Both the position numbers and the translations under genes were made by a program. Source: Candidatus Enterococcus courvalinii (GTDB taxonomy: Bacteria > Bacillota > Bacilli > Lactobacillales > Enterococcaceae). Taken from it: 64,000 nt of DNA. The notes beneath the pieces are model-generated. The model saw nothing but the letters and a program-made list of their open reading frames with translations. It was not told the origin of the DNA and searched no databases. The stretch spans positions 62,001-126,000 of the forward strand of contig NZ_JAFLWI010000001.1 in the NCBI RefSeq assembly GCF_017315945.1. The letters run 5' to 3'. Below are positions 45,122-53,599 of the stretch, in pieces (positions within the stretch are counted from its first letter, which is position 1; every line of letters starts with the position of its first letter).

Positions 45122-45329
45122 TGATACCCCTTTTCTCAACTATTCCCTTTTATTTCTTATTTTAGCATAGGTTTCGTTTTCTTTGCTTCCTCCTTCATTC
45201 AGCATATCTTAGTTCCGATCTTTTTATTTCTTCTATGTATTCTTTTTTTAATCCGAAGTAAAATCTATTTATCCCTTCCCATTCAAAGTTCAATCCCTGA
45301 TTTTTCATAGACTATCAGAAAAATATTGA

Positions 45330-46178
45330 TTAAAATACTGTTTTCAAATCAATCATTTTTGAAAAATCAGACAATTGCACAGAAAGATCGTCATAACCTA
45401 AAGATTTTACCCAAAAAATAATTGATGATGAATCAAATTCTATGTGATCAATTATTTTTTTATATGTACCAGTGAAAAAGTGCCAAAAAATTCTACCGCT
45501 AACATAAGATATATCAGATGAAGCATCATGCAACTGTAGTAAAATTTCAGGAATAAAAGAATACTGCCCTCTTTCAAAAAGTAAGATTAAATAATTTACC
45601 AAAAAAGATATTTTACAATGCTGATATTTGGGGTAGCCATAATACTTATCATATGCGTTCATAATAATCACGTATTGATTTTTAATATAACTTGTTGAAA
45701 AAAGATTTAGACAATTAGTAAACATAGATAATTCAAAATATCCCCAGGTTTCGACTTTATCTAGATATTTTTTTACAACTACTATTTCAGCGTCCAAATT
45801 AGTTTTCTTGTCATAGATTCTATTTTGAATATTTATGGCCTCTACAAAAAGTAGTAAATAAAAGATGTCTCCATCTTGTTCATATTTCTTCTTCAAGTTA
45901 CGAATAAAATCCGATGAAGATGAGTTAGCCACTTCCTTTAAAAAGTATTGATAAATATCTTCTTTTTCATTTTTATTTTCTTGATTAACTATCAAAAAAA
46001 AATCTTCAGGTCTAATATTTAAGCGATTTAAATAATGAAAAAGTGCTTCTAACGTTACTCTCGTTTCTCCAGACTCAAATCTTGCTACAGAAACTCTTGT
46101 TTGGAGTCCTTCGGCTAGTTGACTCTGAGTGATATTACGCTCATTTCTTAGATTTTTAATGATTTTTCCGTATAGCAT
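45330..46178 (-). CDS. Rgg/GadR/MutR-type regulator of cassette 1
   Basis: A 282-residue protein with an N-terminal XRE helix-turn-helix (about 3-60; ITQSQLAEGLQTRVSVARFESG) and a long all-helical C-terminal region (about 75-280) of the Rgg type. Rgg proteins respond to short secreted peptides and switch on adjacent bacteriocin or virulence genes. It is AT-rich and divergent from the secreted-protein gene at 46363, which it likely controls. No terminator was found downstream. Confidence 0.85.
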   Translation of the reverse strand: MLYGKIIKNLRNERNITQSQLAEGLQTRVSVARFESGETRVTLEALFHYLNRLNIRPEDFFLIVNQENKNEKEDIYQYFLKEVANSSSSDFIRNLKKKYEQDGDIFYLLLFVEAINIQNRIYDKKTNLDAEIVVVKKYLDKVETWGYFELSMFTNCLNLFSTSYIKNQYVIIMNAYDKYYGYPKYQHCKISFLVNYLILLFERGQYSFIPEILLQLHDASSDISYVSGRIFWHFFTGTYKKIIDHIEFDSSSIIFWVKSLGYDDLSVQLSDFSKMIDLKTVF

Positions 46179-46280
46179 ACAAACACCTTACTTTCTGTAT
46201 AGTTTACGTTACATTTTTTTTAATCCTCTAAATGACATTTACAATAAAGACATGATTTCAAAACTAAGGGGGGAAAAATT

Positions 46281-46343
46281 GTGTGCAATATTCTTAATAC
46301 GTACGGTCTTTGGTACCCAACACAACCAACAAATAATTATTAA
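46281..46343 (+). CDS. Candidate 20-residue peptide upstream of the secreted-protein gene
   Basis: AAGGGGGG at 46266-46273, seven bases, then GTG and 20 codons (MCNILNTYGLWYPTQPTNNY) ending in TAA, 19 bases before the next ATG. The Shine-Dalgarno is one of the strongest in the window. It could be a leader peptide, a signalling peptide read by the Rgg protein, or a coincidence. No similarity recognised. Confidence 0.4.
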   Translation: MCNILNTYGLWYPTQPTNNY

Positions 46344-46362
46344 TCTGTTAGGAGCAAAAAAG

Positions 46363-46941
46363 ATGAAAAAAAGAAAATTTCTAACTTTTACACTTACGTC
46401 TCTATTATTTATAGGTAGTTTCACACCCGCTTGTACTAACGTAGTACAAGCAATGGAACTATCTCAAGAAATTAATCAAACAGAAAAATTAGAAAGTTTA
46501 AATTCAACCATCAACAATATAAAAACATCAACTAATAATCTGAATTTTAATGAACAAAGAATACTTGATACATATACAGAAGAACTTTCTAACGAATATA
46601 TCGAGACTCTAAAATCAGGATCCTCCAAGCAAAATAATACTGAATTCACGTTAAATCAACGTGGCGTTGGTTCTCTGATGGCCCACTTACTCCTGCGCTA
46701 CACCAAAACATATATTTTAAAAACACTTCCCAAATTGCTTTATAAAAAAGTTGCAGGCGTTATCGGAGGCAGCGTATCAGAGGCAACTTTTGTAAATATT
46801 TGGAGTAATATTATTGGAATTGCTACTTTATCAAACATTGGAAGTTTGGTTTCCAGTGGATTGAATAGTATTGGTATTACTGGATGGTTGTCAGATGCAA
46901 TAGGGAACGCTGTTCAAATTGCAATTGATGTTTTTTTATAG
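46363..46941 (+). CDS. Secreted hydrophobic-tail protein, cassette 1
   Basis: A 192-residue protein with a signal peptide (KKRKF, hydrophobic core 7-22, likely cleavage after VVQA at residue 30). The mature part has an Asn/Thr-rich polar region (31-99) and, after QRG at 99-101, a hydrophobic glycine-rich tail (about 101-192; VAGVIGGSVSE, IGSLVSSGLNSIGITGWLSDAIG). This two-part build is like a precursor of a membrane-active peptide, but no known bacteriocin family is recognised. The ATG follows TTAGGAGC. Next gene codes for a tiny membrane protein. Confidence 0.75.
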   Translation: MKKRKFLTFTLTSLLFIGSFTPACTNVVQAMELSQEINQTEKLESLNSTINNIKTSTNNLNFNEQRILDTYTEELSNEYIETLKSGSSKQNNTEFTLNQRGVGSLMAHLLLRYTKTYILKTLPKLLYKKVAGVIGGSVSEATFVNIWSNIIGIATLSNIGSLVSSGLNSIGITGWLSDAIGNAVQIAIDVFL

Positions 46942-46959
46942 AAAAGATACAATAAACAC

Positions 46960-47124
46960 ATGAAATATCAAACTATAGTTTTATTAATCATAAGTTTTAT
47001 TTTATTTTGGATACTTTTTGGTCTCTTTAATATCTATCAGCAGCTTGGTGTATGGGGGTTACTCATATTTATAGTTTTAGTTATTGCTTTAAGTATCCTC
47101 GCCAAAATAAAGCAAAGGCTGTAG
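46960..47124 (+). CDS. Small two-helix membrane protein, cassette 1
   Basis: A 54-residue protein, almost entirely two hydrophobic helices (about 5-24 and 31-48) joined by NIYQQLGVW, with a basic end KIKQRL. It starts 18 bp after the secreted-protein gene and ends before a terminator. Position and size fit an immunity-type protein, but this is inference. The Shine-Dalgarno is weak (GAAAAGAT). Confidence 0.6.
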   Translation: MKYQTIVLLIISFILFWILFGLFNIYQQLGVWGLLIFIVLVIALSILAKIKQRL

Positions 47125-47156
47125 AAAAGAAAAAATATCAAATTATAAGTCTCTAT

Positions 47157-47191
47157 CTCTTACTGAAATAATATTCAGTGAGAGTTTTTTT
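47157..47191 (+). terminator. Terminator of cassette 1
   Basis: CTCTTACTGAA / TTCAGTGAGAG stem followed by seven T. Confidence 0.85.
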
Positions 47192-47228
47192 ATCTCACAC
47201 TAGACTCATGTTTTTACATCAGCAAGTA

Positions 47229-47276
47229 TAATAAAAAAGCACCGAAATCCCATCATATCAAGGATTCCGATGCTCT
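47229..47276 (-). terminator. Terminator of the rplJL operon
   Basis: Minus strand AGCATCGGAATCC / GGGATTTCGGTGCT with minor mismatches, then six T. Confidence 0.85.
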
Positions 47277-47290
47277 ATAATCAGCAAAAA

Positions 47291-47659
47291 TTATTTAACT
47301 GTTACTGATGCGCCAACTTCTTCAAGTTTAGCTTTTAATTCTTCAGCTTCGTCTTTAGACACGCCTTCTTTAACTGGTGCAGGAGCGCCATCAACTACAG
47401 CTTTAGCTTCTTTCAAGCCTAAGCCAGTTGCTTCACGAACTGCTTTGATAACTTTAACTTTTTGGTCTCCAGCTGCAGTTAATTCTACAGTGAATTCAGT
47501 TTGTTCTTCAGCTGCAGCACCTGCTACAGCACCAGCTGCAGCTACAGGAGCAGCAGCAGATACGCCAAATTCTTCTTCAATAGCTTTAACTAGGTCGTTA
47601 AGTTCTAGGATAGTTGCTTCTTTTAACTCAGCAACGATGTTTTCAATGTTCAATGCCAT
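47291..47659 (-). CDS. rplL: Ribosomal protein L7/L12
   Basis: A 122-residue stalk protein: N-terminal dimerisation part [17 protein letters not shown], Ala-rich hinge (about 38-55) and C-terminal factor-binding domain with [19 protein letters not shown]. The ATG at 47657-47659 follows GGAGG by seven bases; the ORF start five codons upstream includes that site. It recruits translation GTPases to the ribosome. Follows rplJ. Confidence 0.98.
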
Positions 47660-47709
47660 GATAATTTCCTCCATTAAATGTTGTTTGTTTTATTTATGCT
47701 ATGCGGCTA

Positions 47710-48213
47710 TTAAGCTGCATCTCCATCTTCTTTGTCTGCGACTGCTTTGACAGCGTAAGCCACGTTGCGGACTGGCGCTTGTAGTACAGATAGCAACATA
47801 GAAAGAAGTCCTTCGCGGTTTGGCAATTTTGCCAAGGCTGTAATTTCTTCCAATGAAGATACTTTACCTTCGATGATACCGCCTTTGATTTCTAATGCTT
47901 TTGCGTCTTTAGCAAATTCATCCATGATTTTTGCTGGTGCAACTACATCTTCGTTACTAAATGCAACGGCTGTAGGGCCAGTAAATACTTCGTCCAAGCC
48001 TTCTAATCCAGCTTGTTTTGCAGCACGTGAAAGGATAGAGTTTTTGATAACTTTCATTTCTACGTTTGCATCACGAAGTTGTTTACGCAAGCGAGTTACT
48101 TCATCAACAGTTAGTCCACGGTAGTCAACGACTACTACAGATGCTGCTGCTGTAAATTTTTCACTTACTTTATCAACGATCTCTGCTTTTTTTGCGATTG
48201 CTGCTTCACTCAT
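47710..48213 (-). CDS. rplJ: Ribosomal protein L10
   Basis: A 167-residue protein that anchors L7/L12 dimers on 23S rRNA; it shows [20 protein letters not shown] and GPTAVAFS. The ATG at 48211-48213 lies nine bases after GGAGGTG. First gene of rplJL, preceded by an L10-leader-type attenuator. Confidence 0.98.
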
Positions 48214-48340
48214 TTTGAGTTTCACCTCCTGAATTTTGATGGAAGAGTCTTTAGTTACCTCATTATGCTGTTCAAAAGGACTCCTTTTTACTTTGCTTAA
48301 TCAGTATTGTTCATCAGCTAATTTCTTAGTGTTTCACAAT

Positions 48341-48373
48341 AAAAAAACCCTATGCCACCGTAGACATAGAGGG
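48341..48373 (-). terminator. rplJ leader attenuator
   Basis: Minus strand CCCTCTATG, ten bases, CATAGGG followed by seven T, 130 bp before rplJ. Confidence 0.8.
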
Positions 48374-48457
48374 ACTATTGAAATTATTCAATAAACGTCC
48401 TCGGTAGGAAATTAAGGCAAAGCCACCTACTGTCTTCGGTACAAGTTAATTATTAAC

Positions 48458-48493
48458 CTCAACTAGCTTAGCACGCTAAACTAGTTGAGTCAA
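48458..48493 (-). promoter_or_regulatory. rplJ promoter inside a 32-bp palindrome
   Basis: Minus strand TTGACT (48488-48493), 17 bp, TAAGCT (48465-48470). The interval 48458-48489 is a near-perfect palindrome: CTCAACTAG, one base, TTAGC, two bases, GCTAA, one base, CTAGTTGAG. Confidence 0.65.
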
Positions 48494-48539
48494 GAATTAT
48501 TTTTCAGTTGGATCAATCAACTATCTAATTTAATTCAAA

Positions 48540-49229
48540 TTAGAAAGAAGCTTGGTCAACGTGGATACCAGGTCCAAATGTTGTTGTTACAGTAACATTC
48601 TTCATGTATTGACCTTTAGCTGCTGATGGTTTAGCTTTCACTAATACATCATGGATTGTTTGGAAGTTTTCGATAAGTTTTGCGTCATCGAATGAAACTT
48701 TACCGATTGGAACATGTACGTTACCAGCTTTGTCAACGCGGTAAGTTACTTTACCAGCTTTTACTTCGTTAACAGCTTTTGTTACGTCCATTGTAACTGT
48801 TCCAGTTTTAGGGTTAGGCATTAAGCCTTTAGGTCCTAATACACGACCTAATTTACCAACAGTTGCCATCATGTCAGGTGTTGCAACAACTACGTCAAAG
48901 TCAAACCATCCACCTTGGATTTTTTGAACCATGTCGTCGTCACCAACGAAATCTGCACCAGCTGCTTCAGCTTCTTTTGCTTTTTCGCCTTTAGCAAATA
49001 CTAAAACAGATTGTGTTTTACCAGTTCCGTTTGGTAATACAACAGCACCACGAATTTGTTGGTCTGCTTTTTTAGGGTCAACATTCAAACGGTAAGCAAC
49101 TTCAACAGTTGCGTCGAATTTTGCAATGTTAGTTTCTTTTGCCAAAGCTACTGCTTCTGCAACAGGATAAACTTTACTTGAATCAACTTTTTTTAATGCA
49201 TCTTGCATTTTTTTGCTCTTTTTAGCCAT
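48540..49229 (-). CDS. rplA: Ribosomal protein L1
   Basis: A 229-residue L1 with [25 protein letters not shown]-type start of the RNA-binding domain and [18 protein letters not shown]. It binds the 23S rRNA L1 stalk and represses its own operon in many bacteria. Follows rplK by 108 bp; an AAGGAGG site precedes the ATG. Confidence 0.98.
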
Positions 49230-49236
49230 TTTGTTT

Positions 49237-49274
49237 CCTCCTTGATTGTGGTTATAACGGTTGTACCTCCCACG
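49237..49274 (-). promoter_or_regulatory. L1-binding-site-like leader before rplA
   Basis: Minus strand GTGGGAGGTACAACC...TAACCACA just upstream of AAGGAGG; GTGG can pair with CCAC. A very similar arrangement precedes rplK (49768-49821). Confidence 0.5.
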
Positions 49275-49337
49275 TGTTCTATATCTTTCAATACAGAGCC
49301 AACTGAGAAGCTACTTTCTTGGGGGCGTTAGAATAAA

Positions 49338-49760
49338 TTATTCTACAACGATACCCATGCTTCGTGCAGTTCCTTCAACCATGCGCATTGCTGATTCAAC
49401 GTTAGCAGCGTTTAGGTCTTCCATTTTCAACTCAGCGATTTCTCTTACTTGATCGCTAGAAATTGTAGCAACTTTATTTTTGTTTGGTTCGCCTGAACCT
49501 TTTTCGATTTTAGCTGTTTTTTTCAATAAAACTGCAGCTGGTGGTGTTTTTGTAACAAAAGTAAATGAACGGTCTTCATATACTGAAATTACAACTGGGA
49601 TAATCAAGCCTGCTTGATCAGCTGTACGAGCGTTGAATTCTTTAGTGAATCCCATAATGTTGATACCCGCTTGACCTAGTGCAGGACCTACTGGTGGTGC
49701 TGGAGTTGCTTTACCTGCAGGAATTTGCAATTTAACGATTTTTTCTACTTTCTTTGCCAC
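49338..49760 (-). CDS. rplK: Ribosomal protein L11
   Basis: A 140-residue L11 starting [20 protein letters not shown], with [17 protein letters not shown] and TARSMGI near the end. It forms the GTPase-associated centre and is the thiopeptide target. Start is GTG at 49758-49760, eight bases after AAGGAGG. First gene of rplKA. In this genome it is about 6 kb from nusG, its more usual upstream neighbour. Confidence 0.98.
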
Positions 49761-49767
49761 GAGACAT

Positions 49768-49821
49768 ACCTCCTTAAGTCCGTGATGTGGTTAATTGGAG
49801 ATACATATTTCTCCTCCCACG
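49768..49821 (-). promoter_or_regulatory. L1-binding-site-like leader before rplK
   Basis: Minus strand CGTGGGAGGAG...TTAACCACATCA...AAGGAGG in the rplK 5' leader. It shares GTGGGAGG and TAACCACA blocks with the rplA leader. Confidence 0.5.
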
Positions 49822-49882
49822 TTTTCATCTATCAATTTTTAAAAAGTTAGATAAAAATGCGCATTTCAATGCACACTGATAC

Positions 49883-49910
49883 ATTATAGCAAATCCAATC
49901 ATATTTTCAA
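49883..49910 (-). promoter_or_regulatory. rplKA promoter
   Basis: Minus strand TTGAAA (49905-49910), 16 bp, TATAAT (49883-49888), 123 bp before rplK. Confidence 0.72.
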
Positions 49911-50088
49911 GAATTTTTTTGATTATTTTTAGGGTTATGAGAAAAAAGTGCTAAAAATTTTCTTATAAAAGGAAAGATTTTTCTCTTTCTTTCACCCTTT
50001 TGTGCTAAACTTACGCCAGAATAAATAAATGTACGAAAAATGAAGTTTATAGAAACTTTTTTCCTTAAGAATTTGACGAGGTGAAAAA
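49911..50088. other. rplK-sdaAB divergent intergenic region
   Basis: AT-rich upstream region of sdaAB. No operator or riboswitch recognised. Confidence 0.4.
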
Positions 50089-50757
50089 ATGAAAGAGTTA
50101 AAGTATAGAAGTGTCTTTGATATTATCGGACCAGTAATGATTGGTCCAAGCAGTTCTCATACTGCAGGTGCAGCTAGAATCGGAAAAGTGATCCGCAGTA
50201 TTTTTGGCGAACAACCAGATTCTGTTGATATTTATCTTTATGAGTCCTTTGCAAAAACGTATCGTGGTCACGGTACCGATATTGCTTTAGTTGGTGGTTT
50301 ATTAGGAATGGAACCTGATGATGAACGTTTAGCTGATTCATTAAAATTAGCATATGAAGCTGGGATGGAGGTCTTGTTCGTACCTAAAAGTGAAAAAGCA
50401 GAGCATCCGAACTCAGTTAAAATGCTTTTAACAAAAGGAAAACGAAAATTGTCAGTCACAGGTATCTCGATCGGAGGCGGAAATATTCAGATTTCCGAAC
50501 TCAATGGTTTCAAAATTTCTTTAAGTATGGGAACTCCAACGCTGATTGTTGTCCATCAAGATGTTCCAGGAATGATTGCTAAAGTGACTAATATTCTTTC
50601 CGAAACAAACACAAATATCGGGACGATGACCGTGACAAGAGAATCAAAAGGTGAAAATGCCATTATGATTATCGAAGTGGATGATCCACAAGTCGAAGAA
50701 ACTGTCCGAAAACTACAACAGCTACCACATATTGATAGCGTGAATTACTTTGATTAA
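50089..50757 (+). CDS. sdaAB: L-serine dehydratase beta subunit
   Basis: A 222-residue subunit: N-terminal SerDH_beta domain with GPVMIGPSSSHTAGA and a C-terminal ACT domain (about 148-220; VVHQDVPGMIAKVTNIL). With SdaAA it converts serine to pyruvate and ammonia. Start ATG after GACGAGGTG. SdaAA follows by 17 bp. Confidence 0.95.
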   Translation: MKELKYRSVFDIIGPVMIGPSSSHTAGAARIGKVIRSIFGEQPDSVDIYLYESFAKTYRGHGTDIALVGGLLGMEPDDERLADSLKLAYEAGMEVLFVPKSEKAEHPNSVKMLLTKGKRKLSVTGISIGGGNIQISELNGFKISLSMGTPTLIVVHQDVPGMIAKVTNILSETNTNIGTMTVTRESKGENAIMIIEVDDPQVEETVRKLQQLPHIDSVNYFD

Positions 50758-50774
50758 AGGAGTCTGCAAAGCCT

Positions 50775-51647
50775 ATGTTTTTATCAATTGAAGAATTAGT
50801 CGAACAAGCAAAAGACTACTCATCTGTCGCAGAGCTAATGATTGCCACTGAGATGGAAATGAGTGGCCGTTCGCGCGAACAAATCATTCAAATCATGGAA
50901 AAAAATCTAGCAGTCATGGAGCAATCAATCACTGAGGGAAAAGCTGGGGTCACCTCTGTCACAGGAATTACTGGCGGAGATGCGAAACGTTTAGATGCTT
51001 ACTTGGAACAAGGTGATTTTTTGAGTGGTGACACGATTTTAACAGCTGTAAGAAATGCTATTGCAGTGAATGAAGTTAACGCCAAAATGGGGCTTATCTG
51101 TGCGACACCTACTGCTGGAAGTGCGGGCGTTGTCCCAGGTGTGCTAATGGCCGTTCGTGAACGTCTTTCTTTGACACACGAGCAACAACTAGACTTTTTA
51201 TTCACAGCGGGAGCTTTTGGATTAGTCATTGCAAACAACGCTTCAATCAGCGGTGCTGAAGGTGGTTGTCAAGCGGAAGTCGGTTCTGCTAGTGCAATGG
51301 CAGCTGCAGCTTTAGTTTGTGCTAAAAATGGCACACCGCATCAAGCTGCTCAAGCAATTGCTATCACGTTAAAAAATATGATGGGGCTAATCTGTGATCC
51401 TGTTGCTGGCCTAGTAGAAGTTCCCTGTGTGAAACGAAACGCTCTAGGTTCCTCACAAGCTTTTATTTCCGCAGACATGGCACTTGCAGGAATCGAAAGT
51501 GTCATTCCACCAGACGAAGTAGTTGCGGCTATGTATCAAGTTGGGCGCCAAATGCCATCGATTTTCAAGGAAACGGCTGAAGGCGGTTTGGCTGCTACGC
51601 CAACTGCGCAACGATTAACCAATGAGTTGTTAACTAAACAAACTTAA
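50775..51647 (+). CDS. sdaAA: L-serine dehydratase alpha subunit
   Basis: A 290-residue catalytic subunit that holds the oxygen-labile iron-sulfur cluster. Conserved parts: CATPTAGSAGVVPG, GAEGGCQAEVGSASAM and LICDPVAGLVEVPCVKRN; the cysteines in these blocks are the cluster candidates. Operon with sdaAB, closed by a strong terminator. Confidence 0.96.
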   Translation: MFLSIEELVEQAKDYSSVAELMIATEMEMSGRSREQIIQIMEKNLAVMEQSITEGKAGVTSVTGITGGDAKRLDAYLEQGDFLSGDTILTAVRNAIAVNEVNAKMGLICATPTAGSAGVVPGVLMAVRERLSLTHEQQLDFLFTAGAFGLVIANNASISGAEGGCQAEVGSASAMAAAALVCAKNGTPHQAAQAIAITLKNMMGLICDPVAGLVEVPCVKRNALGSSQAFISADMALAGIESVIPPDEVVAAMYQVGRQMPSIFKETAEGGLAATPTAQRLTNELLTKQT

Positions 51648-51677
51648 AAAGGTCGGGCAGATAATTTTGCCTCGGCC

Positions 51678-51725
51678 AAACTGAAGACAATAATCCTTTC
51701 ATGGTTGTTGTCTTCAGTTTTTTTA
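51678..51725 (+). terminator. sdaAB-AA terminator
   Basis: AAACTGAAGACAA / TTGTCTTCAGTTT stem with a long loop and a T run. Confidence 0.85.
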
Positions 51726-51911
51726 TTTCAAATAAAAAACGCAATTTATTTTCTTTACCTATGTATTTATTAACCGATAAATTCATGCACTCTATCACGG
51801 ACAACCTACTACTATGTTGAAATACATTGTTGCTTCACAAAAAGTTCTTAGCTTAATGATTGACCTTTTACTATAAACGAATGAATCATTTCTATTTATT
51901 ATCTGCTCTAT

Positions 51912-52385
51912 CTATTTATACCCTACAAAATAAAGGAATACTATAAGCATTGTTGAAATATCAAGCGAAACGATCACAATTATCAGTGCGGTCGCTCGTT
52001 TAAATTGTTTTGGAGTAATCTTATTCTTCCACGTAAAAATCATAGAGAGAGCAATTGGCGCGGAGTAAGGAATAAATAGCGCAATTACTAAAAGAATAAT
52101 CAAAGCAAGGTTCCATAATTTCAAATCTTGCATTTCAAATAATCTATTTTTTCTCACTCGTTTACTCAGATATTCTGAGTCCATCACTTCATTTTCAGAA
52201 TAAAAATAATCAATTGGCAAATCAAACAATTGAGATAATAGAATAATATTATCCGTAGTAGGAATCGCTCGTTGATTTTCCCAATTAGAAATTGTTTGTC
52301 TAGAAACTAAGATTTTTTCTGCTAATTCTTCTTGTGTTAGTTCTTTTTTCAATCTTTCTGCTTTTATTTTTTGGTACATAGCCAT
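51912..52385 (-). CDS. Membrane-anchored XRE regulator of cassette 2
   Basis: A 157-residue protein with an N-terminal XRE helix-turn-helix (about 4-60; LTQEELAEKILVSRQTISNWENQ) and two or three C-terminal hydrophobic segments (about 92-112, 133-155). Such membrane-attached HTH proteins are common beside bacteriocin- or stress-type genes. The ATG at 52383-52385 lies eight bases after AAAGGGG. Divergent from the secreted-protein gene at 52514 with TTTACGAATGTAAA-type dyads between. Confidence 0.85.
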   Translation of the reverse strand: MAMYQKIKAERLKKELTQEELAEKILVSRQTISNWENQRAIPTTDNIILLSQLFDLPIDYFYSENEVMDSEYLSKRVRKNRLFEMQDLKLWNLALIILLVIALFIPYSAPIALSMIFTWKNKITPKQFKRATALIIVIVSLDISTMLIVFLYFVGYK

Positions 52386-52407
52386 CAAACAAACCCCTTT
52401 CTTATCT

Positions 52408-52421
52408 AACTTTACGAATGT
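52408..52421. promoter_or_regulatory. Dyad between the cassette 2 regulator and secreted-protein genes
   Basis: TTTACGAATGTAAA is a perfect TTTAC / GTAAA palindrome (5-bp arms, four-base centre) just upstream of the XRE gene, a likely operator. Nearby ATTACATCATTACGTAGTAA repeats similar half-sites. Confidence 0.5.
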
Positions 52422-52513
52422 AAAGCCTTATGTAAAACACCTTTGATAGTTAATTACATCATTACGTAGTAAGTTATTTTTGTAAAGAAAAATTTTGGAA
52501 AGAAGTGTTGAGA

Positions 52514-53059
52514 ATGTTGGCAAAAAATTTAAAAGTTGTTACAGGTTTATTATCAGTTATTACAATTTCTGGAGCTCTTGCCCCAACAGTTACTGTCTTA
52601 GCTGAAGAAAACAATCAGATTAAACTGACTAATGAACAAACAAGCACACAGGAAACATACGTCCTTAATGAAAATAATCAAAACTATAACCAAGCTGTGA
52701 AATACTTAAAAGAAAATGCTAGTAGCTTTTCCGTAAAATACTTTGAAGCATATTTTTACGGAAAAACTGTCACTTCTAAAAATCGTGATGAATTACTGAA
52801 TGGTTATCTCGAGTTTTTAAGTACCAAGCCTCATTCTAGAGTTGGTATTGAAGTTATTTTAGGGATTATCGCCTCGGCTATTGCAATTATTCAAGGAATG
52901 TACAATGTTGGTAGATACGCTGCTAAGCAATGTGTATCTCGTGGTATTCTTTCTAAAAAAGAATATAAACCTAATGGTGGCTGGATAATGGCTGGAATTA
53001 CAGCGTCATTTGGCTTTCCAGCAGCACTAGGTTTTGACGATTACATGTACAATCGTTAA
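52514..53059 (+). CDS. Secreted hydrophobic-tail protein, cassette 2
   Basis: A 181-residue protein with a signal peptide (MLAKNLK, hydrophobic core 8-24, likely cleavage after VLA at residue 30), an Asn/Gln-rich polar region (31-105) and, after SRVG at 108-111, a hydrophobic helix (GIEVILGIIASAIAIIQG, 111-128) and a Gly-rich end (NGGWIMAGITASFGFPAALG). No family recognised. Same architecture as the cassette 1 protein. The start is uncertain: GTG at 52505 or TTG at 52508 are alternatives. Confidence 0.7.
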   Translation: MLAKNLKVVTGLLSVITISGALAPTVTVLAEENNQIKLTNEQTSTQETYVLNENNQNYNQAVKYLKENASSFSVKYFEAYFYGKTVTSKNRDELLNGYLEFLSTKPHSRVGIEVILGIIASAIAIIQGMYNVGRYAAKQCVSRGILSKKEYKPNGGWIMAGITASFGFPAALGFDDYMYNR

Positions 53060-53082
53060 TTTGTCTTACGAAAGGAATAGAA

Positions 53083-53268
53083 ATGAACATATTTAGGGAT
53101 ATTTTTAATTTTTTTATTGATCACTATGATTTCATCGCAATCTTATTACTCTCAGGAGCTGTAATATCTTTATCTATTAAATCGGCTAAACAGCAAGATG
53201 AAATTGACCAAATTAAGCAACAACTTCACACTTACGAAGTACAAGATCTTATATCAAGAAAAAAATAA
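53083..53268 (+). CDS. Small membrane protein with coiled-coil tail, cassette 2
   Basis: A 61-residue protein: amphipathic start MNIFRDIFNFFIDH, one membrane helix (about 16-34) and a charged helical tail (SAKQQDEIDQIKQQLHTYEV, heptad-like). It lies 23 bp after the secreted-protein gene with an AAAGGAAT Shine-Dalgarno. Role unknown; immunity or partner function is an inference from position. Confidence 0.7.
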   Translation: MNIFRDIFNFFIDHYDFIAILLLSGAVISLSIKSAKQQDEIDQIKQQLHTYEVQDLISRKK

Positions 53269-53562: not shown

Positions 53563-53599
53563 AAAAAGAGCAGTGACAAAACTTTTGTCACTGCTCTTT
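53563..53599. terminator. Bidirectional terminator before lactate oxidase end
   Basis: AAAAGAGCAGTGACAAAA / TTTTGTCACTGCTCTTT, nearly loopless long stem. Confidence 0.85.

Follow-up and report, generated by a model that had tools for sequence, protein, structure and literature searches.

In a 64,000-nucleotide (nt) stretch of the Candidatus Enterococcus courvalinii genome (contig NZ_JAFLWI010000001.1, positions 62,001 to 126,000 of the forward strand; hereafter the window), we found two loci that are very probably bacteriocin–immunity cassettes of one general plan, for which we infer killing, cleavage, immunity and regulation from sequence. Each comprises a minus-strand regulator, a divergent precursor with a signal peptide and a small membrane protein, and all six genes lie where an initial annotation of the window had placed them. 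As it had also proposed, the cassettes stand on either side of the rplL-rplJ-rplA-rplK-sda block (names assigned from translations of the open reading frames, ORFs), and the hydrophobic tail of each precursor begins after an Arg near residue 100–110, at R100 in precursor 1 and at R112 in precursor 2 (numbered from GTG). The regulators, each of which it had described as an XRE-domain protein, share a helix-turn-helix (HTH) domain but nothing else. The features are as follows, with lengths in amino acids (aa).

45330..46178, minus strand: cassette 1 regulator of the Rgg family, 282 aa (P0005); Pfam Rgg_C 3.8e-16 and HTH_3 4.1e-9, TIGR01716 70.7 bits (cut-off 36.9)
46363..46941, plus strand: cassette 1 bacteriocin-like precursor, 192 aa (P0001); ORF translation, plasmid relatives at 25–33% identity
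46663..46938, plus strand: predicted mature tail of precursor 1, after R100; 24–43% identity to P0001 versus 7–16% in the pro part, in six rows spanning both
46960..47124, plus strand: cassette 1 small membrane protein, 54 aa, putative immunity protein; 18 nt past the precursor, maximum 19-residue hydropathy 2.92
47157..47184, plus strand: terminator-like stem closing cassette 1; 11 pairs, then a T run
51912..52388, minus strand: cassette 2 regulator, 158 aa (P0006), HTH_3 plus two hydrophobic regions; HTH_3 3e-17, hydropathy, and the same kind divergent from several relatives
52418..52448, plus strand: candidate operator, ATGTAAA direct repeats 12 nt apart (52418, 52430) followed by TTGATA (52443); at least two copies in 6 of 9 aligned intergenic regions
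52514..53059, plus strand: cassette 2 bacteriocin-like precursor (P0003), 181 aa from ATG 52514, or 184 aa from GTG 52505; ORF translation, family alignment
52841..53056, plus strand: predicted mature tail of precursor 2, 72 residues after R112 (GTG numbering); 43–83% identity to seven relatives versus 14–56% in the pro part, homologous to the cargo of double-glycine peptides
53083..53268, plus strand: cassette 2 small membrane protein, 61 aa, putative immunity protein; 23 nt past the precursor
53565..53599, plus strand: terminator-like stem about 300 nt downstream of cassette 2; 16 pairs

A small membrane gene directly downstream of the precursor, the arrangement by which bacteriocin–immunity operons are judged, is present in the window and in relatives. 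We screened the 55 non-nested window ORFs that are 130 codons or longer. Two of them have, within -60 to +130 nt of their end, an ATG-initiated ORF of 40–75 aa containing a membrane-like stretch (hydropathy above 1.9 over 19 residues, a cut-off set with the cassettes already known), and these two are the precursors; looser settings gave 3 of 55 (hydropathy 1.6) and 4 of 55 (35–130 aa and hydropathy 1.6). The pairing at the two cassettes is more than chance. We examined the next gene at 20 cassette-2-type loci, some of them near-identical (G832 and G905; the window and E. thailandicus). All 15 uninterrupted precursors are followed by a membrane-type ORF of 44–68 aa starting -23 to +23 nt from the precursor stop, against 2 of 53 other window genes at the same length and hydropathy settings (ATG starts only). 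Six further precursors are interrupted (ZJ1622, G010, G068, G367, G195 and G049), and the small gene is intact beside five of them, the exception being G049, which stands outside the 20-locus set; in G195 an intact 58-aa small membrane ORF lies 132 nt on. Such persistence would fit the behaviour of an immunity gene, although draft-genome errors could explain some of the interruptions. Two tail subfamilies of the cassette 2 family, with seven and three members, pair with two unlike small proteins. By eye, several small proteins have a single membrane stretch and, after it, a charged end resembling a coiled coil (window 53083-53268, L041 3534-3698 and L092 3336-3476).

Within the genus, 7 of 15 genomes carry a relative of the cassette 2 precursor; the figures for the family and the order are 9 of 105 and 16 of 395 (own genome in each count). 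Four of the 16 order-wide matches cover the N-terminal part only and were set aside (G120, G357, G393 and G399). From 83 candidate stretches in the named genomes, nine cassette-2-type loci were confirmed. Named relatives include those of E. thailandicus (three loci), E. ratti, E. mundtii, E. villorum, Enterococcus sp. ZJ1622, RIT-PI-f (a remnant) and Trichococcus flocculiformis. Relatives are also carried by three Bacillus plasmids, two of which were read; the third, together with L016 and L031 (cut by contig ends), was left out of the counts. In an eight-row alignment, the seven other rows are 43–83% identical to P0003 in the tail and 14–56% in the pro part, and a Lys or Arg stands at, or at most one column from, the boundary between the two in all eight rows; the last stretch of the E. 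ratti precursor deviates. On a Bacillus altitudinis plasmid (L092 1124-3476), the relative comes after phage holin and amidase genes, and in E. mundtii it adjoins nusG (L012/L042, L066), a gene that in the window, too, lies near the cassettes. L076, L077 and L080 (G357, G399 and G393, respectively) hold Sec-type precursors of a third class, with a short membrane ORF next in two of the three and none detected at L077; the regulator upstream at L085 (G357) has a ComR_TPR domain (1.3e-41).

The cassette 2 tail was also found behind a different export signal. Genome G390, which belongs to a different family within the order, encodes a double-glycine-leader peptide that matches this tail; the genus of G390 is probably Streptococcus, judging from a pA996-type plasmid in a member (L090) and from the rtg-like locus. 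A hidden Markov model (HMM) built from seven Enterococcus and Trichococcus tails, with no streptococcal sequence, scored 26.4 (G390), 19.2 and 15.0 bits (two further genomes) on three double-glycine peptides, for which the best of 3000 shuffles each (2854 to 2998 of which received a score) reached 14.2, 11.7 and 12.0 bits, while four other double-glycine peptides of such loci scored at most 2.7 bits. In the HMM alignments the tail starts within about two residues of the Gly-Gly, the training tails having been pre-cut at the basic residue. Double-glycine peptides with a cassette-2-type tail were counted in 4 of 177 genomes of the presumed Streptococcus genus, using a model that includes L078 and L073, so that the E-values are not independent. 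The G390 locus, the only double-glycine locus read widely, encodes an ATP-binding cassette exporter with a C39 peptidase (Peptidase_C39 5.2e-31; TIGR01193 560.6 bits, cut-off 523.85), an HTH protein in which no Rgg domain was recognised, and short membrane ORFs downstream of two double-glycine peptides (two of its three peptides were inspected for one). A Sec-type relative also occurs in another genome of this genus (G267, L073; 37.5 bits). As the homologous tail stands both behind a Sec signal with a pro part and behind a double-glycine leader, the same released domain seems to be demarcated by two processing signals that are unrelated to each other.

The cassette 1 family is distributed differently. 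Its relatives were found on 11 plasmid records (seven Streptococcus, two Brevibacillus, one Secundilactobacillus and one Latilactobacillus). Genome-wide, they were listed for 7 genomes out of 395 in the order, 2 out of 177 in the G390 genus and 2 out of 398 in the phylum, the first and last counts including the own genome. Some of these genome matches are weak, interrupted or N-terminal only: in the order-wide list G145 has stops in the match and G396 covers the N-terminal part only, and G852 in the G390-genus list is a short, tentative match (54–92 of 92). P0002 of cassette 1 was found in 1 of 105 family genomes, its own. E. thailandicus (G012) is without cassette 1: blastn aligned the flanks well but found nothing between them to match window 45199-47232, and mere pieces of the cassette remain in G010. 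At six of eight cassette-1-type loci the precursor is followed directly, on its own strand, by a hydrophobic ORF (52–64 aa in five and 113 aa in G226), the small gene of L. sakei being read across the record start; outside these eight are L033-L037, L058, L069, L082, L090 and L091. In Brevibacillus halotolerans the pair of precursor and membrane protein is repeated in tandem, in B. laterosporus it is preceded by an HTH-TPR regulator and a 45-aa ORF, and in Secundilactobacillus the precursor is split into two annotated ORFs. In its tail, precursor 1 is homologous to a protein of the Streptococcus pyogenes plasmid pA996, one of the 11 plasmids, which is said to carry a putative bacteriocin (PMC10808429). 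On Streptococcus agalactiae pYZ1605, a geobacillin-26 family gene (45.1 bits, cut-off 40; L056 3033-3635) adjoins the cassette-1-type precursor.

The initial annotation had held that the secreted proteins look unrelated in sequence and match no known family, and both statements were borne out by our searches. BLASTP of precursor 1 against precursor 2 gave 18.9 bits (E 0.048) in the N-terminal half, and a profile comparison of the two families by hhalign aligned the signal peptide alone (probability 87.9, E 3.3e-6). By these comparisons the precursors are different proteins with unrelated tails. None of the four small proteins (two precursors and two membrane proteins) reached a curated Pfam or NCBIfam cut-off, and PHROGs and PADLOC gave weak matches only. 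Kinship to an unrelated enzyme or surface-protein family, which had been named as evidence to the contrary, did not appear at a meaningful score in Pfam, NCBIfam, PHROGs, PADLOC, PDB sequences or one fold search. The structure model of precursor 2, made from eight sequences, had a best mean predicted local distance difference test (pLDDT) score of 64 (five models, 64.0 to 39.6), with confident pro-part helices at 59-71, 74-84 and 94-106, a break, helices at 114-128 and 132-145, and an unreliable end at residues 154-184.

Several observations weigh against a bacteriocin function, and the case for cassette 1 is the weaker of the two. A same-strand small gene after the precursor is absent from both streptococcal plasmids examined, at the tail boundary of the cassette 1 family Brevibacillus has Gln and G226 a non-basic residue, the cut site itself being predicted, and a double-glycine relative of the cassette 1 tail was not found in the 177 genomes of the G390 genus. 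The structure model of precursor 1 was unusable, and the fold search with the model of precursor 2 yielded no meaningful structural match. Of the three double-glycine scores, that of L088 is narrowly above its shuffles. The rtg peptides were merely speculated to be bacteriocins by their authors (PMC7018657), and the literature searched held no report of antibacterial activity for the proteins described here. Finally, the resemblance of the regulator on plasmid pLs145-c, described below, is to a very common HTH domain.

P0005 has an Rgg C-terminal domain (PF21259 59.8 bits, cut-off 27), and P0006 has hydrophobic regions at about 86-120 and 131-157. On the 4,315-base-pair (bp) L. sakei plasmid pLs145-c, the genes for a cassette-1-type precursor and for a membrane protein of 56 aa are divergent from that of an HTH regulator whose C-terminal part is hydrophobic, resembling cassette 2; BLASTP of this regulator against P0006 aligns the HTH only (27 of 65 identical). 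In E. mundtii, a cassette-2-type precursor and small gene are followed by a convergent Rgg gene (Rgg_C 1.6e-12), and this Rgg protein may regulate the adjoining unit. Because the kinds of regulator are thus cross-paired, parts look to have been exchanged between the two types elsewhere. Six of nine aligned cassette 2 intergenic regions contain at least two ATGTAAA copies 11–12 nt apart just before a TTGAYA-like box (counted by hand), making these repeats a candidate operator. A narrow scan with a ribosome-site filter beside the Rgg gene revealed no short hydrophobic pheromone gene and listed one 20-codon non-hydrophobic ORF. This ORF lies between the Rgg gene and precursor 1 (window 46281-46343, plus strand) and has a G-run ribosome site that, judged by eye, could instead serve a TTG extension of the precursor 1 frame.

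Since Rgg, ComR-like or HTH-TPR regulators adjoin several units, the precursors might be secreted signalling pro-peptides whose tail is a pheromone for the neighbouring regulator or for a membrane receptor, the small membrane protein aiding release or sensing; C39 exporters export pheromones too (PMC7018657). We consider this unlikely, as the small protein changes kind with the tail subfamily and outlives the precursor, which suits protection better. Furthermore, a tail of 72–92 residues is large for an Rgg-type pheromone.

The cassettes also occur on small replicons. A second whole cassette 2, with a precursor 67% identical, is present in the own genome on a 4,050-bp contig that carries a Rep_trans gene; this contig is plasmid-like, and its ends are without overlap. 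Location on small replicons, together with the combination of a hydrophobic peptide and a small membrane partner, would also suit addiction or abortive-defence modules, in which the precursor hits the membrane of its own producer and the small membrane protein is the antidote. The signal peptides, the long variable pro part, and the homologous tail behind double-glycine leaders, at one locus beside a C39 exporter, make such a role highly improbable, and the PADLOC models match HTH parts only, plus P0001 weakly (15.7 bits). That these are ordinary secreted or surface proteins without antagonistic function, alike in plan by coincidence, would agree with precursors lacking detectable homology beyond the signal peptide, but it is very unlikely given that the plan recurs at many loci, that regulator kinds vary among relatives of one type and recur in the other, and that few other window genes have such a small gene next.

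The initial annotation had taken the cassettes for independent members of a single class of units, of bacteriocin, toxin or signalling type. The unrelated tails and the apparent exchange of parts support this view, and a bacteriocin is favoured among the three options because of the double-glycine relatives with their C39 exporter and the small membrane gene that persists beside interrupted precursors. In such a bacteriocin–immunity system, the precursor would be exported by the Sec pathway, signal peptidase would remove about 30 residues, and the polar pro part would be cut off outside the cell near the conserved Arg or Lys. The released hydrophobic helical peptide, of about 92 residues in cassette 1 and about 72 in cassette 2, would target the membrane, or a membrane receptor, of related bacteria, and the 54- or 61-aa membrane protein would protect the producer. 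The divergent regulator would switch the unit on, Rgg probably via an imported peptide, and the membrane-anchored HTH protein probably in response to a cue from the membrane or outside, acting at the ATGTAAA repeats.

Precursor 1 is divided into a signal peptide (about residues 1-30), a pro part (31-100) and a tail (101-192). Its start is most likely ATG 46363 (192 aa), a 270-aa ORF being an upstream extension of the precursor frame. For precursor 2, ATG 52514 (181 aa) appears more likely than GTG 52505 (184 aa), as the GTG sits in a ribosome-site-like stretch common to relatives. Besides the terminator-like stems listed above, weaker ones were found elsewhere in the same scans, one of them within precursor 1.

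More broadly, a plug-in architecture may be widespread in Bacilli, in which four parts can each be swapped independently of the others: the regulator, whether Rgg, ComR-like, HTH-TPR or membrane-anchored HTH, the export module, the killing domain and the immunity protein; we hold the chances for and against this to be about equal. The same even balance applies to the export module being either a Sec signal with a removable pro part or a double-glycine leader with a C39 exporter. Were this architecture real, the cassette 2 tail would be one bacteriocin family that switched export route, and the pro part would be an extracellular safety catch, a role that in streptococci goes to the leader cleaved at the exporter. 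If the bacteriocin interpretation is correct, the window holds two Sec-exported bacteriocin families with candidate immunity genes, new to the family libraries searched, and offers a handle on rtg-like double-glycine peptides. Because enterococci carry the homologous tail by itself, accompanied by a dedicated small membrane gene, activity and immunity could be tested without a dedicated exporter, and the role of the pro part would become testable as well.

We then compared the cassettes with known systems. A description of these precursor families was not found in the literature searched, most subscription papers being outside its reach. The rtg locus of Streptococcus pneumoniae is Rgg-regulated and has a C39 exporter, and the function of its peptides was not determined by its authors, who speculated on bacteriocins (PMC7018657). 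The cassette 2 tail is homologous to double-glycine peptides of rtg-like loci in other genomes, pneumococcal rtg being compared by description. Three of the four leaders of these relatives have a Pro at -18, a position within the rtg-specific leader region (PMC7018657), and a small membrane gene likewise comes after the peptide. On the other hand, the window precursors have a Sec-type signal and a long pro part instead of a double-glycine leader, with no exporter gene adjoining. By description, the cassettes also resemble dysgalacticin (with DysI) and streptococcin A-M57, which are plasmid-encoded large non-lytic bacteriocins, dysgalacticin having a Sec leader and a membrane-associated immunity protein encoded alongside (PMC8308785, PMC10086258). 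The putative bacteriocin of pA996 is homologous to the tail of precursor 1 and keeps the R-G boundary, but it has no adjoining annotated regulator and no same-strand small membrane gene directly after the precursor.

EntV (enterococcin V583, enterocin O16) of Enterococcus faecalis is built alike, with a Sec signal, a pro part and a C-terminal active part, the last comprising 68 aa and released by the extracellular protease GelE (PMC9562342, PMC6606811); the model of precursor 2 likewise predicts three pro-part helices before the tail. No adjacent immunity gene is described for EntV in the available parts of these articles, and the main text of PMC6606811 never uses the term 'immunity'. Membership in the EntV family was rejected on three counts. 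Against NF058576, P0001 scored 12.7 bits (E 0.095) with a cut-off of 130, and P0003 was unlisted at E 1. In place of the cysteine pair that joins the ends of the mature part, there is no Cys in the P0001 tail and one in the P0003 tail. For a GelE-type M4 protease, the own genome (99.99% complete) gave 0 PF01447 matches, while the control matched in 2 of 14 named genomes. The EntV structure 7roa was not among the matches listed for the precursor 2 model, the tail end of which is of low confidence. EntV-like proteins below the NF058576 cut-off were seen at L047-L050 in four other genus genomes, and their profile matches 7roa (E 0.0042).

Class IIa bacteriocin precursors are not known to have a long pro part, and the tails of the window precursors are, by eye, without a YGNGV-type motif. 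For the export route, however, the Sec-dependent class IIa bacteriocins hiracin JM79 and enterocin P provide a precedent for one class using either the Sec or the double-glycine pathway (PMC3546714).

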